Below, piece by piece: positions 7,239-12,487 of a DNA stretch of 58,991 nt (within the stretch, counting starts at the first letter, position 1; every line of letters begins with the position of its first letter). Location of the stretch: assembly GCA_022775765.1 (NCBI GenBank), contig JALFKC010000084.1, forward strand, positions 1 through 58,991. The letters are read 5' to 3'. The translations under genes and the position numbers were made by a program. The DNA is from Campylobacter sp. GTDB taxonomy: Bacteria > Campylobacterota > Campylobacteria > Campylobacterales > Campylobacteraceae. The notes beneath the pieces were generated by a model. That model had not been told where the DNA came from. It ran no database searches and saw nothing but the letters and a program-made list of their open reading frames with translations.

Positions 7239-8015
7239 TTAAAATACAGGAAGTATCGCTCCACCGTATTTTTGATTGATAAAGTCTTTGGCAGTTTGGC
7301 TTGTGATAGCTTTATCAAGAGCTTTGGTTTTTTCGCTATCTTTGTTTTCAGCCTTGACAGCAACGACATTTGCATATGGACTATCAAAACTCTCAATCGC
7401 TAAGGCGTCTTTTGATGGATTAAGGTTAGCATTTAATGCGTAGTTCATATTGATAATTGCAATATCAGCGTCATTTAGAGTTCTAGGAACGCTCGCAGCT
7501 TCAACTTCTATGAATGATAAATTCTTAGGATTTTTGGTGATATCGAGTGGGGTTTTAAGCTCAACACTCTTATCAAGCTCAATAAGTCCAATAGTCTCTA
7601 AGATATCAAGTGCACGACTTTCGTTGGTTGGGTCATTTGGTAAGCTAACTTTTGAGCCATCTTTTAGCTCATCGATATGCTTAATTTTTTGGCTATAAAC
7701 CCCCATTGGCTCGATATGCACGGCGACTGTTGGGACTAAATTTGTGCCTTTGTTTTTATTAACCTCTTCTAAAAAAGGCTTGTGCTGATGAAAAGTCGCG
7801 TCAAGCTCACCATCGTTTGTAGCTATATCAGGGATGACATAGTCATTAAAAACCTTAACTTCAAGCTCATACCCAGCCTTCTCAAGTTCTGGGGCGATCG
7901 CCTCTAAAATCTCAGCGTGTGGGACAGGTGTAGCACCAACTACGATCTTGTTGTTTGCAAAAAGCGATGAACTAAGTGCTACTGAAAGCACAGAAACCAA
8001 AAATAGTTTTTTCAT
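7239..8015 (-). CDS. metQ: MetQ/NlpA-family methionine-binding protein, copy 1
   Basis: The 258-residue periplasmic binding protein of the NlpA/MetQ family has the hallmark VGATPVPHAEIL right after the signal peptide and an SLPNDPTNESRALDILE block. The ATG at 8015 follows AAAGGAG; a start six codons upstream would place that Shine-Dalgarno inside the gene. The signal peptide ends SSLFA/NNK with no lipobox cysteine, so this copy looks soluble rather than lipid-anchored, unlike E. coli MetQ. It is the last of three tandem paralogues and is followed by a strong terminator. Confidence 0.88.
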   Translation of the reverse strand: MKKLFLVSVLSVALSSSLFANNKIVVGATPVPHAEILEAIAPELEKAGYELEVKVFNDYVIPDIATNDGELDATFHQHKPFLEEVNKNKGTNLVPTVAVHIEPMGVYSQKIKHIDELKDGSKVSLPNDPTNESRALDILETIGLIELDKSVELKTPLDITKNPKNLSFIEVEAASVPRTLNDADIAIINMNYALNANLNPSKDALAIESFDSPYANVVAVKAENKDSEKTKALDKAITSQTAKDFINQKYGGAILPVF

Positions 8016-8029
8016 TTTTTCTCCTTTAA

Positions 8030-8803
8030 TCAAAATGCAGGCAAAACTGCACCTTTGTATTTTTCATTGATAAAATTTCTAACTTCATCAGTCATAAGTG
8101 CGTCTTTTAAAGCTTTGGTATAGGCCTTATTTTCATTACCCTCTTTGACGATGAGATAATTCACATATGGGCTTTCGCTCCCCTCAAGCCCCAAAGCGTC
8201 ACTTCCTGGGTTTAATCCGGCCAAGAGTGCGTAATTGGTATTGATAACCGCAATATCAGTGTCTGTTATGGTTCTTGGCACACTAGCTGGTTCAAGGGTA
8301 GTGAATTTTAATCCCTTAGGGTTTTCATAGATATCGCTTGTGGTGATAAACTCACTATCAGGGTTTTCAAGCTTTATAAGGTTGAATTTCTCAAGCAGTC
8401 TAAGAGCTCTAGTCTCAGTTGAGACATCGTTTGGAAGAGTAACTTGTGCTCCATCTTTTAGCTCATCAAGGCTTGAGATTTTATTTGAATAGATTCCCAA
8501 AGGCTCAATATGAACTCCAACTACAGCAAACATATGAGTGCCATTTTGAGCATTAAACTCTTTCATATATGGAAGCCCTATCAAAAAGTGAGCGTCAATC
8601 TCGCCCTTTTCCAAAGAGTAATTTGGTATAACATAGTCATTAAACTCAACTATTTCTAAATCATAGCCATTTTTGGCTAAATTTGGCTTGATAAGCTCCA
8701 AAATTTCAGCGTGTGGAACAGGCGTAGCACCGATCAAAATCTTTTCATTTGCACTTAAATTTAGCACTAAAAATAGAGCTATTAAAGTTAAAATTCTTTT
8801 CAT
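8030..8803 (-). CDS. metQ: MetQ/NlpA-family methionine-binding protein, copy 2
   Basis: The 257-residue paralogue has the same VGATPVPHAEIL block and NDVSTETRALRLLE region. Its signal peptide ends NLSA/NEK, again without a lipobox cysteine. It has a strong AAGGAG Shine-Dalgarno and sits 9 bases after copy 3 and 14 bases before copy 1. All three are full length and diverged well beyond a recent duplication, so they may differ in ligand (L-Met, D-Met, Met-peptide or sulfoxide); that is a guess. Confidence 0.88.
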   Translation of the reverse strand: MKRILTLIALFLVLNLSANEKILIGATPVPHAEILELIKPNLAKNGYDLEIVEFNDYVIPNYSLEKGEIDAHFLIGLPYMKEFNAQNGTHMFAVVGVHIEPLGIYSNKISSLDELKDGAQVTLPNDVSTETRALRLLEKFNLIKLENPDSEFITTSDIYENPKGLKFTTLEPASVPRTITDTDIAVINTNYALLAGLNPGSDALGLEGSESPYVNYLIVKEGNENKAYTKALKDALMTDEVRNFINEKYKGAVLPAF

Positions 8804-8812
8804 TTTTTCTCC

Positions 8813-9571
8813 TTAAAATGCTGGCAAAACTACGCCATCATACTTTGAGTTTATAAACTCTTTTACTTGTTCGCTTGTGATGGCGTCTTTTAGTGTGTTT
8901 AGTTTGGTTGAGTTTTCATCGCTTTTTCTAATAGCAATGATATTGACATATGGGCTATCCTTCTCCTCAACAAAAAGCCCATCTTTGAGTGGATTTAGCC
9001 CACCTGCTAGAGCGTATGAAGTGCTAATGATTGAGATATCTACATCGTTAATACTTCGTGGTAAGGTCGCGGCTAAAAGAGTAGTAATTTGTAAATTCTT
9101 AGGATTTGAAGTAATCTCAAATTTCTCATCATCAAACTCTATAAGACCCGCTTTATCAAGCAAAATCAGAGCTCTTTTTTCGTTGATTGGGTCGTTTGGA
9201 ATGCTAACTTTTGCACCACTTTTTAGCTCATTTAGGTTTTTGTGATTTGTGCTATAAATTGCCATCGGCTCGATATGAACTTTAGCAAGCGAGATAAGGT
9301 GGGTGCCGTTTTGAGCATTAAAATCCTTTAAAAACGGCTCGTGTTGATAAAAATTAGCGTCTATATCACCACTCTCAAGCGAGTAATTAAGAACCTTATC
9401 ATCAATCTCTGTGATTTTAAGTTCGTAGCCTTTTTCTTTCAAAATCGGTCTAGCAACTTCTAAGATTTCAGCATGTGGAACTGGCACAGCCCCCACTTGA
9501 ATGATTTCATTAGCGTTTAAGCCAAGCACAAAAGCTAAACTCAAAAACGATAATTTGATTAAATTTTTCAT
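8813..9571 (-). CDS. metQ: MetQ/NlpA-family methionine-binding protein, copy 3 (first of the operon)
   Basis: The 252-residue NlpA/MetQ protein begins with a signal peptide ending GLNA/NEI and has the VGAVPVPHAEILE block. It lacks a lipobox cysteine. It is the first metQ downstream of a Met-rich leader peptide and terminator, so expression of all three copies is probably controlled there. Its weak AAAGG Shine-Dalgarno (about 9574-9579) abuts and partly enters an 11-bp hairpin (9579-9616), so translation initiation may also be controlled. Confidence 0.88.
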   Translation of the reverse strand: MKNLIKLSFLSLAFVLGLNANEIIQVGAVPVPHAEILEVARPILKEKGYELKITEIDDKVLNYSLESGDIDANFYQHEPFLKDFNAQNGTHLISLAKVHIEPMAIYSTNHKNLNELKSGAKVSIPNDPINEKRALILLDKAGLIEFDDEKFEITSNPKNLQITTLLAATLPRSINDVDISIISTSYALAGGLNPLKDGLFVEEKDSPYVNIIAIRKSDENSTKLNTLKDAITSEQVKEFINSKYDGVVLPAF

Positions 9572-9578
9572 TTTTGCC

Positions 9579-9616
9579 TTTCATAAATTTACTCATTTAA
9601 AACTGAATTTATGAAA
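9579..9616 (-). promoter_or_regulatory. Hairpin abutting the first metQ start
   Basis: A perfect 11-bp inverted repeat, TTTCATAAATT (9579-9589) and its complement (9606-9616), has a 16-base loop. In the transcript the 3' arm runs into the AAAGG ribosome-binding site of the first metQ (ATG at 9571). The 5' arm and loop are covered by ribosomes translating the small ORF at 9589-9639. This geometry would allow translation of the small ORF to open the metQ start. Confidence 0.5.
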
Positions 9617-9639
9617 ATAGTAAGAAAATTTAGCTTCAT
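9589..9639 (-). CDS. Possible second short leader ORF before metQ
   Basis: The 16-residue ORF MKLNFLTIFINSVLNE starts at an ATG preceded by AAAAAGGAATTTTT, a good Shine-Dalgarno. It lies between the leader terminator and the first metQ, and its stop falls inside the start-site hairpin. It has no Met beyond the initiator. It could simply be a translated spacer that keeps the metQ start open, or chance. Coding status is unproven. Confidence 0.4.
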   Translation of the reverse strand: MKLNFLTIFINSVLNE

Positions 9640-9667: not shown

Positions 9668-9691
9668 GCACTTAAAAAGAAATTTAAGTGC
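9668..9691 (-). terminator. Attenuator terminator between Met-rich leader peptide and metQ
   Basis: A perfect 9-bp stem GCACTTAAA/TTTAAGTGC with a 6-base loop is followed on the minus strand by TTTTAT. It starts 4 bases after the stop codon of the Met-rich leader ORF. A competing 7-bp hairpin (TTTAAGT at 9693-9699 pairing with ACTTAAA at 9683-9689) overlaps the leader stop codon and shares the terminator's first arm, so it can serve as an antiterminator. Both are visible in sequence; function is inferred. The U-tract is short. Confidence 0.6.
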
Positions 9692-9694
9692 AAC

Positions 9695-9739
9695 TTAAAA
9701 ACTACACATTTCATACATATCTGACATTTCTGAAGTCAT
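9695..9739 (-). CDS. Met-rich leader peptide of the metQ operon
   Basis: The 14-codon ORF encodes MTSEMSDMYEMCSF, with Met at positions 1, 5, 8 and 11. Its ATG is seven bases after a strong AAAAGGAG Shine-Dalgarno, and a TATAAT promoter element lies about 30 bases upstream. It ends 4 bases before a terminator hairpin and precedes three methionine-binding-protein genes. A short peptide rich in the amino acid handled by the downstream operon is the signature of ribosome-mediated attenuation: stalling at Met codons when charged Met-tRNA is scarce would favour antitermination. I know of no described Campylobacter example but could not search. Confidence 0.65.
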   Translation of the reverse strand: MTSEMSDMYEMCSF

Positions 9740-9769
9740 TTTTTTTCTCCTTTTAAATTTGATTTGTGA

Positions 9770-9775
9770 ATTATA
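9770..9775 (-). promoter_or_regulatory. -10 element of metQ leader promoter
   Basis: Perfect TATAAT on the minus strand, predicting a transcript start near 9763, about 24 bases before the leader-peptide ATG. Campylobacter sigma-70 promoters need little -35 consensus, and the T-rich upstream sequence fits. Confidence 0.6.
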
Positions 9776-9815: not shown

Positions 9816-9879
9816 AAGATATATTTTTATAAATTAAGCTTAAAAATATGTATTTATGCGAATTATAAAAATATATCTT
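9816..9879 (-). terminator. 17-bp inverted repeat ending the metN-metI unit
   Basis: A perfect 17-bp arm AAGATATATTTTTATAA (9816-9832) is repeated inverted at 9863-9879 with a 30-base loop. On the minus strand it is followed by ATTTTTATATT. It lies 12 bases past the metI stop and upstream of the metQ leader promoter, so it probably separates the two units. The stem is almost pure A-T, which weakens it. Confidence 0.5.
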
Positions 9880-9890
9880 TTAAGTATAAA

Positions 9891-10715
9891 TTATTTTTTA
9901 GCTTTTCTATATAGATAATTGCCAACCATTTGAAAAATTTGAACCATCACAACTAGTATGACAACTGTATAGAGCATAATATCAGCTCTAAATCTTTGAA
10001 AACCATACCTTATAGCCACATCTCCAAGCCCACCGCCTCCAAGCGTACCAGCCATCGCTGAAAAGCCAATAACTACGATTATGGTTAGGGTTGTGACATT
10101 AATTAGAGCTGGCACAGCCTCAACCAAAATCACTCTAAAAATTATTTGCATCTTACTAGCCCCAAAGCTCTTAGCAGCCTCAACTATACCGCTATCAACT
10201 TCAATTAATGCGTTTTCTATCAAGCGAGCGATAAATGGTGCGGTGCCAATGGTTAGAGGAACTATAGCTGCGTCGGTGCCAATACTCGTGCCAACCACAA
10301 ACCTAACAAATGGGAAAAGCACAATAATAAGAATAATAAACGGAAAACTTCTTAAGGTATTTACAATAGTATCAAGGATGAGATAGATGAAGCGGTTTTC
10401 CATCAAACCACCACTTCTTGTTAAAACCAAAACAATAGCCAAAATTAGCCCCAAAATCCCAGCAAAAAAAGTCGCTGTGATACTCATATACAGAGTTTCC
10501 CAAGTGGCAACTAGCAAAATATCAACTATCACTTTGTAGTTTTTGGCCCCAAGTAATGCGGTTAAGCTCTCTTTTAAGCTAGCAAAAATTTCACCAAAAA
10601 AGGGCTTATTAATGGTGCTATCTATGCTAACAAAAACTGAATTTCCTACAAAAAATGGGTAGAGAAAAAATAAAACTAAAATCAATCCTAAAAATATAAC
10701 TGTTTTTTTACCCAT
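9891..10715 (-). CDS. metI: MetI-type methionine ABC transporter permease
   Basis: The 274-residue inner-membrane permease has the MetI pattern: a TWETLYMSITATFFAGILGLILAI-type first core helix region, LRSFPFIILIIVLFPF, and the EAA-like loop EAAKSFGASKMQIIFRVILVEAVPAL near residues 180-205. Usual MetI length is about 217; the extra ~50 residues are an N-terminal helix and loop, seen in some Campylobacter homologues. Its ATG overlaps the upstream Sel1 stop as TAATG, so it is translationally coupled to that gene. Its partner ATPase is metN. Confidence 0.88.
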   Translation of the reverse strand: MGKKTVIFLGLILVLFFLYPFFVGNSVFVSIDSTINKPFFGEIFASLKESLTALLGAKNYKVIVDILLVATWETLYMSITATFFAGILGLILAIVLVLTRSGGLMENRFIYLILDTIVNTLRSFPFIILIIVLFPFVRFVVGTSIGTDAAIVPLTIGTAPFIARLIENALIEVDSGIVEAAKSFGASKMQIIFRVILVEAVPALINVTTLTIIVVIGFSAMAGTLGGGGLGDVAIRYGFQRFRADIMLYTVVILVVMVQIFQMVGNYLYRKAKK

Positions 10716-11119
10716 TAGTAGCCCTGTCTATTTAAATCAGCATATCTGCCACAACCTAGTTGAAATCCAAAATCGCAAGTTTTGCCAAAATACTTCTTAG
10801 CTGTGGTATAGTTTTTCTTTACTTCTTGAGCATTTTCATATGAAAATCCAAGACTAAAGCAACCTTCATCAACACCACCATCACAAGCCATTTTGTAGTA
10901 TTTATTAGCTTCTTTATAGTCTTGTTTTACACCCAATCCAGTATCGTATAAAACACCAACATTATAGTAAGTATCATCAACACCACCATCACAAACCTTT
11001 TTATAATACTCAGCAGATTTTGTAAAGTCGCCATTATTATAAGCTTCTACAGCTATATCAAAATCATTCGCACAAACAGCACCAAATCCCAAAATCAAAG
11101 CTAAAAATAACTTTTTCAT
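10715..11119 (-). CDS. Exported cysteine-rich Sel1-repeat protein (Hcp-like), between metN and metI
   Basis: The 134-residue protein has a signal peptide (MKKLFLALILGFGAVCA) and about three Sel1/TPR-like repeats, each with a Cys pair (YKKVCDGGVDD, YKMACDGGVDEGC, FGKTCDFGFQLGC), as in Helicobacter cysteine-rich Hcp proteins where the pairs form disulfides. Function is unknown; some family members bind beta-lactams or act in host interaction. It has a strong AGGAG Shine-Dalgarno and is coupled to metI by a TAATG overlap. Its placement inside a transporter operon is odd. Confidence 0.75.
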   Translation of the reverse strand: MKKLFLALILGFGAVCANDFDIAVEAYNNGDFTKSAEYYKKVCDGGVDDTYYNVGVLYDTGLGVKQDYKEANKYYKMACDGGVDEGCFSLGFSYENAQEVKKNYTTAKKYFGKTCDFGFQLGCGRYADLNRQGY

Positions 11120-11148: not shown

Positions 11149-12117
11149 TCACTTATATTCATCCAAAATTTCCCACAAAACGCCGGTTTTTTTGATATAC
11201 TCTATCACTATATTTTTATCTTTTGGGTCGATATTGATAACCAAATGCCCTAACACCAGCTCACTTAACTGCTCGATTTTGCCCCAAACTATATTAAAAT
11301 TAATATCTAAATCCCTAGCCATATTTGTTATCACGCAATTAAAGGCGACATTTCTAGGAAAATATAGTGAAATATTTAGTCCTTCATTTGGCACTATCAC
11401 ATCTTCGCCCAAAAACTCCTTCATATCTTCACCTGGCTTTAAAAACATATCTTCAGTGTTGCCACTATCTTTGATCTCTCCGCCAACCAAAAGCACGGCT
11501 TTGTTTGCAGTGGTTTTGACTACCTCCATCTCGTGGGTAACTAGCACGATGGTAATTCCTAGATTTTTGTTAATATCTTTTAAAAGTTCTAAAATTTGCT
11601 TGGTAGTTTTTGGGTCAAGTGCTGAAGTCGCTTCATCGCTTAATAGGATTTTGGGATTTAGCGCTAGGGCTCTAGCGATAGCGACGCGTTGCTTTTGACC
11701 GCCACTTAGCTCTCTTGGATATGAGTTTAATTTCCCACTTAACCCAACGATATCAAGTAGCTCTTTAACTCTTTTGTCAATATAGTTTTTTTCGTATCCC
11801 CAAAATAGAAGTGGTGTAGCAACATTTTCATATACTGTTTTTCTACTCATTAGTGCAAAATGCTGAAATATCATACCGATATCACGGCGAAATTCTCTAA
11901 GTTCTTTGTTTTTTAGAGTATTAACCTCTTTGTCAAAAACTTTCACGCTTCCACTATCATAACTCTCAAGCCCATTTAAGCATCTAAGTAGCGTGCTTTT
12001 GCCAGCTCCGCTATGGCCTACAAGGGCAAATATTTCACCCTTTTTTATCTCGAAATTGATATCTTTTAAAACAGGTGTGTTGCCGTAACTTTTGTATAAA
12101 TTTGTGACTTTTATCAT
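11149..12117 (-). CDS. metN: MetN-type methionine ABC transporter ATPase
   Basis: The 322-residue ATPase has Walker [11 protein letters not shown]-loop FQHF, signature LSGGQKQR, Walker [13 protein letters not shown] and the switch His in VTHEMEV, followed by a C-terminal ACT-like NIL domain from about residue 240 that in MetN senses intracellular Met. I start at the ATG at 12117 ([12 protein letters not shown]), 10 bases after the upstream Sel1 stop. A longer reading to 12201 would run into that gene. Confidence 0.9.
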
Positions 12118-12127
12118 ACTAAATTTC

Positions 12128-12487
12128 TTAAAACCCCTCTTCGTTAAGCTCTCTAAATTTATCACAGCCCACTTGTTCGCCAAGGTCGCACGACACTCCA
12201 TAAAACTCCTTAGCTAGGGGCTTGTCTTGCCTAACGGCTTGGCCACTTTCATATACATAGCCTAGATTATTGCACCCAAATGGATTACTATCCCTGCAAG
12301 CCACCGAGTAGAATTGATACGCTTTTTTGTAATCTCTTTGAACGCCATCACCATCTGTGTAGATTACACCTAAGGTATTACAAGCTGTGGAATTATTATC
12401 ACTAAGGCATAAACTCTCAAGCTCAGTGACGCTACTAGCTAGCAAATTTAGAGCAAACAAGCCCAAAAATAGATAAATTTTTCTCAT
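12128..12487 (-). CDS. Exported cysteine-rich Sel1-repeat protein (Hcp-like), upstream of metN
   Basis: The 119-residue protein has a signal peptide ([17 protein letters not shown]) and two to three Sel1-type repeats with Cys at regular spacing ([33 protein letters not shown]). It is related to but clearly distinct from the Sel1 gene at 10715. The start follows AAGGAAA. It lies 8 bases from the upstream DUF486 gene and 10 bases from metN, so all are likely one transcript. Two such proteins flanking metN suggest a link to transport or periplasmic thiol chemistry, but function is unknown. Confidence 0.7.

Follow-up and report, generated by a model that had tools for sequence, protein, structure and literature searches.

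The question raised by this locus is how a small Met-rich open reading frame (ORF) lying before methionine transport genes could control them. It was studied in a stretch of 58,991 nucleotides of a Campylobacter sp. genome (contig JALFKC010000084.1), hereafter called the window. In other bacteria, methionine genes are controlled in their 5′ leaders by SAM riboswitches and T-box leaders, and the attenuation of amino acid operons is commonly presented as a matter of transcription termination. A mechanism of this last kind had been proposed for the window in an earlier reading of its sequence.

The leader is placed between metI and three consecutive metQ genes, all on the minus strand. The metI permease gene (9891-10715) lies upstream of the leader and the metN ATPase gene occupies 11149-12201. 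The proposed regulated target is metQ1 (8813-9571), which encodes a MetQ/NlpA substrate-binding protein, and metQ2 (8030-8803) and metQ3 (7239-8033) follow. In C. jejuni, three metQ copies adjoin metNI, the same gene set as in the window (PMC11774046). Within the metNI region of the window, metN is flanked by two small secreted-looking proteins (10715-11119 and 12128-12487), both of which, judged by eye, resemble Sel1-type repeat proteins.

Leader open reading frame and promoter

The leader ORF (9739-9695, minus strand) comprises 14 codons, MTSEMSDMYEMCSF, and a stop codon, with Met at codons 1, 5, 8 and 11. Its Shine-Dalgarno (SD) sequence, AAGGAG, is found at 9747-9752, and relatives have an AAAGGA-type SD. 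A TATAAT box at 9770-9775, on the same strand, was assigned as the -10 box of the leader's own promoter, from the sequence and from a conserved TANAAT. All these elements, as well as the two hairpins that the earlier reading had described with them, were present in the sequence. TANAAT was found upstream of the leader ATG, mostly 35-42 nt off, in 48 of the 52 distinct leaders versus 21 expected. No convincing -35 box was found, and in a promoter scan promoter-like sites were no commoner in the region than in shuffles. An AT-rich 15-bp inverted repeat (9818-9877), situated after the metI stop and before the leader promoter, is a possible metI terminator or operator.

Conservation of the leader in the Campylobacteraceae

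The upstream regions of metQ were compared among relatives. About 70 Campylobacteraceae genomes were found to have Met-rich leaders at the same position ahead of metQ. A search model using sequence only gave strong matches in 54 of the 153 genomes of the family, 16 of which match by construction because the model was built from them; it matched a single leader copy in the window's own genome. Weak matches of this model in three genomes (G056, G022 and G024) were discounted. The core motif was also looked for elsewhere in the order, outside the family, where the 19 loci inspected were all chance-like and had no leader context.

Several leader types were distinguished. The SDMYEMC core of the window leader is the counterpart of SDMCEMC in relatives. 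The closest relative has a Met-rich small ORF with an SD (MKSDMCEMYGLEFSCQMT), other relatives have MMSDMCEMRYTS and MKSDMSDMYEMCRCLAMRCRKTF at the same position, and leaders of the form MKSDMC[EDQH]MC... occur throughout one whole genus. Fifteen further genomes carry ATGATGNNNCAGATG leaders, MM[SYTP]QM[RF], all before metQ; they belong to the genus containing C. bilis and C. volucris. A third type (MIQMR, MMQMR or MMTQMQ) was found in three genomes of another genus. Across leaders, the Met positions are constant while neighbouring residues vary. An alignment across relatives had been suggested with the earlier reading, and it showed that leader position and Met codons are conserved throughout the family.

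The chance of three extra Met within 13 codons, given 2.3% Met, was calculated by hand as about 0.003. Conservation is far stronger evidence for a Met leader than this probability. Since Met-rich leaders occupy the same place in about 70 genomes, the leader cannot be ascribed to chance. Judged from these comparisons, it is real and conserved, and its putative Met-sensing codons are not a chance occurrence. In two of the loci (L009 and L010), the metQ-like gene that comes first downstream of the leader seems to be broken or to have lost an internal part: at about 2460-2740, metQ fragments with 36% and 31% identity and a stop precede an intact metQ.

Alternative hairpins in the window

Segment X (9683-9691) is the 5′ arm of a 9-bp hairpin, X:Y, formed by GCACTTAAA (9691-9683) and TTTAAGTGC (9676-9668), with an energy of -9.6 to -10.8 kcal/mol. 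It is directly followed on its 3′ side by TTTTATAA. Segment W (9693-9699), over the leader stop codon, is the 5′ arm of a second helix, W:X, in which TTTAAGT (9699-9693) and ACTTAAA (9689-9683) form 7 bp of -1.9 to -2.7 kcal/mol; it is weaker than X:Y by about 8 kcal/mol. The 51-nt hairpin region had a folding z of -4.9, and 0/200 shuffles folded equally well.

A longer and stronger helix had been overlooked in the earlier reading. Segment Y (9668-9685) pairs with X through its 3′ part, 9676-9668, and its nucleotides 9685-9669 (AAATTTCTTTTTAAGTG) pair with segment Z (9658-9642, CATTTAAAAAGGAATTT). The resulting Y:Z helix has 17 perfect pairs, including two G-U, and is the longest perfect helix with a span of at most 60 nt on either strand of the 59-kb window. 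X:Y and Y:Z are mutually exclusive because both use Y. Z holds the SD (AAGGA, 9650-9646) of a second small ORF, ORF2, and this SD is sequestered in Y:Z.

ORF2 (9589-9639, minus strand; MKLNFLTIFINSVLNE and a stop) is putatively translated. It is known from two genomes only, that of the window and that of its closest relative (L002), where its counterpart is MISILLNFINSVLNGFIY; in both, its SD is Z and the ORF ends just before metQ. A further hairpin precedes metQ1. Its 5′ arm, V, lies at 9606-9617 and its 3′ arm, S, at 9578-9589, where it overlaps the metQ1 SD (GAAAGG, 9582-9577). ORF2 probably couples its translation to that of metQ1.

Helix chains and covariation in relatives

X:Y was kept in every leader type. 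In relatives the helices form chains that end on the metQ SD, either X:Y/Y:Z or X:Y/Y:Z/Z:V/V:SD. In the shorter chain, Z is the next gene's own SD in L009 and L010, so that the SD lies inside Y:Z, and the metQ SD lies partly within Y:Z in C. jejuni-type leaders. MMYQMR, the exact C. jejuni sequence, is present in two genomes (G156 and G160), with X:Y and a helix of Y toward the metQ SD region. The longer chain, with Z:V and then V:SD of metQ, was found in a large genus and in three leaders of the window's own genus (L007, L025 and L036). Helix V:S covers the metQ SD in 31/31 sequences examined. All the architectures observed consist of either two or four helices; because this number is even, X left free goes with an open SD in each of them, and the sign of the regulation is unchanged.

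Pairs were counted in alignment A3, made up of 36 distinct four-helix leaders. X:Y is 99.3% paired (n=36) and shows A-U to G-C changes, with a single pair changed on both sides, so that its support comes less from covariation than from its occurrence in all leader types. Y:Z is 96.7% paired, with both-sided changes at three pairs; its covariation score was reached by 0/500 shuffles and was well above that of all slid versions. Z:V is 90.4% paired, with both-sided changes at three pairs (19 cells), and 0/500 shuffles reached its score. Sequences of kin can beat shuffles even where there is no structure, so single change events also matter. L150 has a G to A change in both Y and V together with a C to T change in Z, and in L155-L157 a T to A change in Y is matched by an A to T change in Z.

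Two other conserved elements were observed in the alignments. In leaders of the C. jejuni type and related ones (A2, A4), AAGCAAGC is strictly conserved between Y and Z, where the rest of the loop is variable. Just before the leader stop, GTC-GAAA-GAC is conserved in one genus of A3, with the loop variants GCAA, AAAA and TAAG, and is either a small hairpin or the conserved SKD end of the peptide.

In the earlier reading, X:Y was an intrinsic terminator and W:X an antiterminator formed on ribosome stalling, as in classical transcription attenuation. We judge this mechanism unlikely. It accounts for a 9-bp hairpin followed by TTTTAT in the window, and the metBA leader RNA of C. jejuni was reported to end shortly after the leader stop codon (PMC3847290). 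A T4 tract directly follows X:Y in only 4/50 distinct leaders, however (the window, L025, L171 and L172), and W:X, at about -2 kcal/mol versus about -10 for X:Y, is absent from the window's relatives. Transcription attenuation also gives no account of the 17-bp Y:Z helix or of its covariation. The views that X:Y is conserved for a terminator function and that W:X is a conserved antiterminator were both rejected on these grounds; what stands of the proposal is a translated-looking, Met-rich leader that lies ahead of metQ and has hairpins excluding one another. As the conserved partner of X:Y is Y:Z, which lies over an SD, the role of X:Y would be the opposite of that proposed, ON and not OFF. 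Some transcription termination may still take place at the window X:Y, given the TTTTAT that follows it.

Cys-rich sister leaders

The sequence model detected a second leader copy in five genomes, four of which were inspected (L154-L157). It lies at 3190-3388 in L154, 2933-3135 in L155, 568-770 in L156 and 3084-3285 in L157, before a cystine-type ABC transporter operon and, in L154, also upstream of a cystathionine synthase/lyase family gene, these gene calls being best NCBIfam matches below the curated cut-offs. Additional Cys codons are present in the sister leaders (MKNDMCDMCCKVKV, MKNDMCDMCCCEMKS), and their helix chain is that of the metQ leaders. This match between leader codons and the amino acid predicted to be transported, seen in few genomes, supports codon sensing. 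The leader probably senses cysteine besides methionine.

Proposed model of translational attenuation

The anatomy of the leader, its conservation and its covarying helices are best explained by translational attenuation mediated by the ribosome, with methionine sensed via the Met-rich leader peptide, and we regard this explanation as likely. When Met-tRNA is short, a ribosome would stall at a leader Met codon and X would stay free. Once Y is transcribed, X would pair with it, leaving Z unsequestered and the SD open (ON). When methionine is plentiful, the ribosome would reach the leader stop and cover X, so that Y:Z would form and the SD would be hidden (OFF). Y:Z would hide the SD directly in two-helix leaders, and in four-helix leaders it would leave V free to do so. 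In the window, the hidden SD is that of ORF2, whose translation would melt the hairpin over the metQ1 SD. We infer, rather than compute, the stalling of the ribosome, the direction of regulation and the coupling of ORF2 to metQ1.

The cost of opening the SD was calculated by folding with the ribosome footprint blocked, for a ribosome at the leader stop versus at the last Met codon. Most two-helix leaders gave a difference of the sign and size expected from the model. For six leaders of the C. jejuni type, moving the ribosome to the stop raised the opening cost of the target SD by 1.8 to 4.5 kcal/mol, and this difference was matched by 0/100 shuffles in each case. The cost was 2.4 kcal/mol higher for the ORF2 SD of the window (1/100 shuffles) and the difference was 2.3 kcal/mol for L009 (2/100 shuffles). 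The effect on ORF2 of L002 was not significant (0.2 kcal/mol; 37/100 shuffles) and the difference had the opposite sign in L171 and L172.

Most four-helix leaders showed little or no difference in the equilibrium SD calculation. An average of 15 kcal/mol separates their ON fold from the more stable OFF fold, and direct-path barriers range from 0 to 19 kcal/mol. As equilibrium folding of most of them favours OFF whatever the ribosome state, ON could only be reached as a kinetic, co-transcriptional state. This predicted need for a kinetic ON state is the weakest point of the model.

The leader could also be translated while metQ is mainly controlled by other means (CosR, CjNC110 or the promoter), with hairpins that serve mRNA stability. 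CosR affects the protein levels of Cj0771c and Cj0772c (PMC3139631), and met transport mRNAs are among the predicted targets of CjNC110 (PMC11774046). We find this improbable, for it leaves unexplained the conserved Met codons, the alternative pairings that end on an SD and the Cys-rich sister leader. An arrest peptide, in which the nascent SDMCEMC core would stall the ribosome on free methionine, SAM or cysteine and not on uncharged tRNA, with unchanged hairpins, would fit the non-Met residues conserved in long leaders (K-S-D-M-C-E/D/Q/H-M), but is very improbable because the C. jejuni-type leaders have only six residues, variable around Met (MM[SYTP]QM[RF]) and short for an exit-tunnel signal, and because arrest on excess methionine would switch transport ON when it is not needed. 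A SAM-type aptamer, SAM riboswitch or T-box was rejected, as no Rfam covariance model matched at the gathering score in the window or the loci of six relatives.

Comparison with known leaders

The translational attenuator proposed here can be set beside the attenuator of the E. coli trp operon. In the latter, segments 1-4 form hairpins 2:3 and 3:4, and a ribosome at the leader stop covers segment 2. W, X, Y and Z behave like trp segments 1, 2, 3 and 4, X:Y being the equivalent of 2:3 and Y:Z that of 3:4. Unlike in trp, the equivalent of 3:4 would hide an SD rather than terminate transcription, and two further helices often extend it. A W:X-type helix of 5-8 bp, running from the last Met codon region to X, occurs in leaders of the C. 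jejuni type and related ones (L166, L168, L047, L053 and L064); it is placed like trp hairpin 1:2, and by this analogy could act like it.

The window has a leader ORF with an SD and Met codons, and exclusive hairpins that start at the leader stop, as in attenuators generally. As in translational attenuators, the SD of a downstream gene lies in one of the alternative helices: the ORF2 SD is in Y:Z and the metQ1 SD is overlapped by V:S. In the ermC and cat translational attenuators, too, a stalled leader ribosome is thought to free downstream translation, but the inducer is an antibiotic. To our knowledge, no four-helix chain is known in these attenuators or in the polycysteine uORFs of mycobacteria. 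These uORFs are described as cysteine-responsive (Canestrari et al., 2020, cited in PMC9031893); an amino acid is sensed and a stalled ribosome would free the downstream gene, as in the metQ model, but the case concerns Cys on leaderless uORFs and not methionine transport.

Two precedents come from C. jejuni. Attenuation by Met-tRNA was proposed by Porcelli et al. (2013) for MetL, before metBA, which was reported to be confined to C. jejuni, C. coli and C. doylei (PMC3847290). MetL is likewise a Met-codon leader peptide in an epsilonproteobacterium, but it precedes a biosynthetic operon and transcription termination was proposed (PMC3847290). Froschauer et al. (2025) detected translation of MetL and, by Ribo-seq, that of CJsORF19 (MMYQMR), before Cj0772c (metQ), which they suggested to be regulatory, potentially a new leader peptide (PMC11955535). 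Translation of the metQ leader is shown for this C. jejuni counterpart only, and no RNA mechanism is given for it in the available text (PMC11955535). CJsORF19, like the window leader, is Met-rich and lies before the first metQ of three. The window shows the same pattern, a Met-rich uORF before the first metQ and an X:Y whose 3′ arm pairs toward an SD; its leader differs in having 14 codons and another sequence type, and the homology is one of position and Met content, not of alignable sequence.

The statement that such a leader was undescribed in an epsilonproteobacterium does not hold, given these two precedents. No published mechanism for the metQ leader was found in the literature searched. 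Its hairpin circuit and wide conservation appear to be undescribed, with the C. jejuni leader as the published precedent. We are evenly divided on a wider proposal, that of an undescribed family of translational attenuators for sulfur amino acids in the Campylobacteraceae, with a Met/Cys leader, a two- or four-helix relay onto the SD of either metQ or a cystine-type transporter, an even helix number that would preserve the logic and a kinetic ON state in four-helix leaders.

The four-segment logic of attenuation appears here to act on translation, to be extended into a helix relay and to be rewired between genera with its sign kept. The natural variants of the leader are test material for how nascent RNA chooses among competing folds. 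If the model is true, it would provide a mechanism for the Met leader of C. jejuni, so far only a Ribo-seq peak, and would explain how methionine (and cystine) uptake is controlled at loci where no SAM riboswitch was matched.
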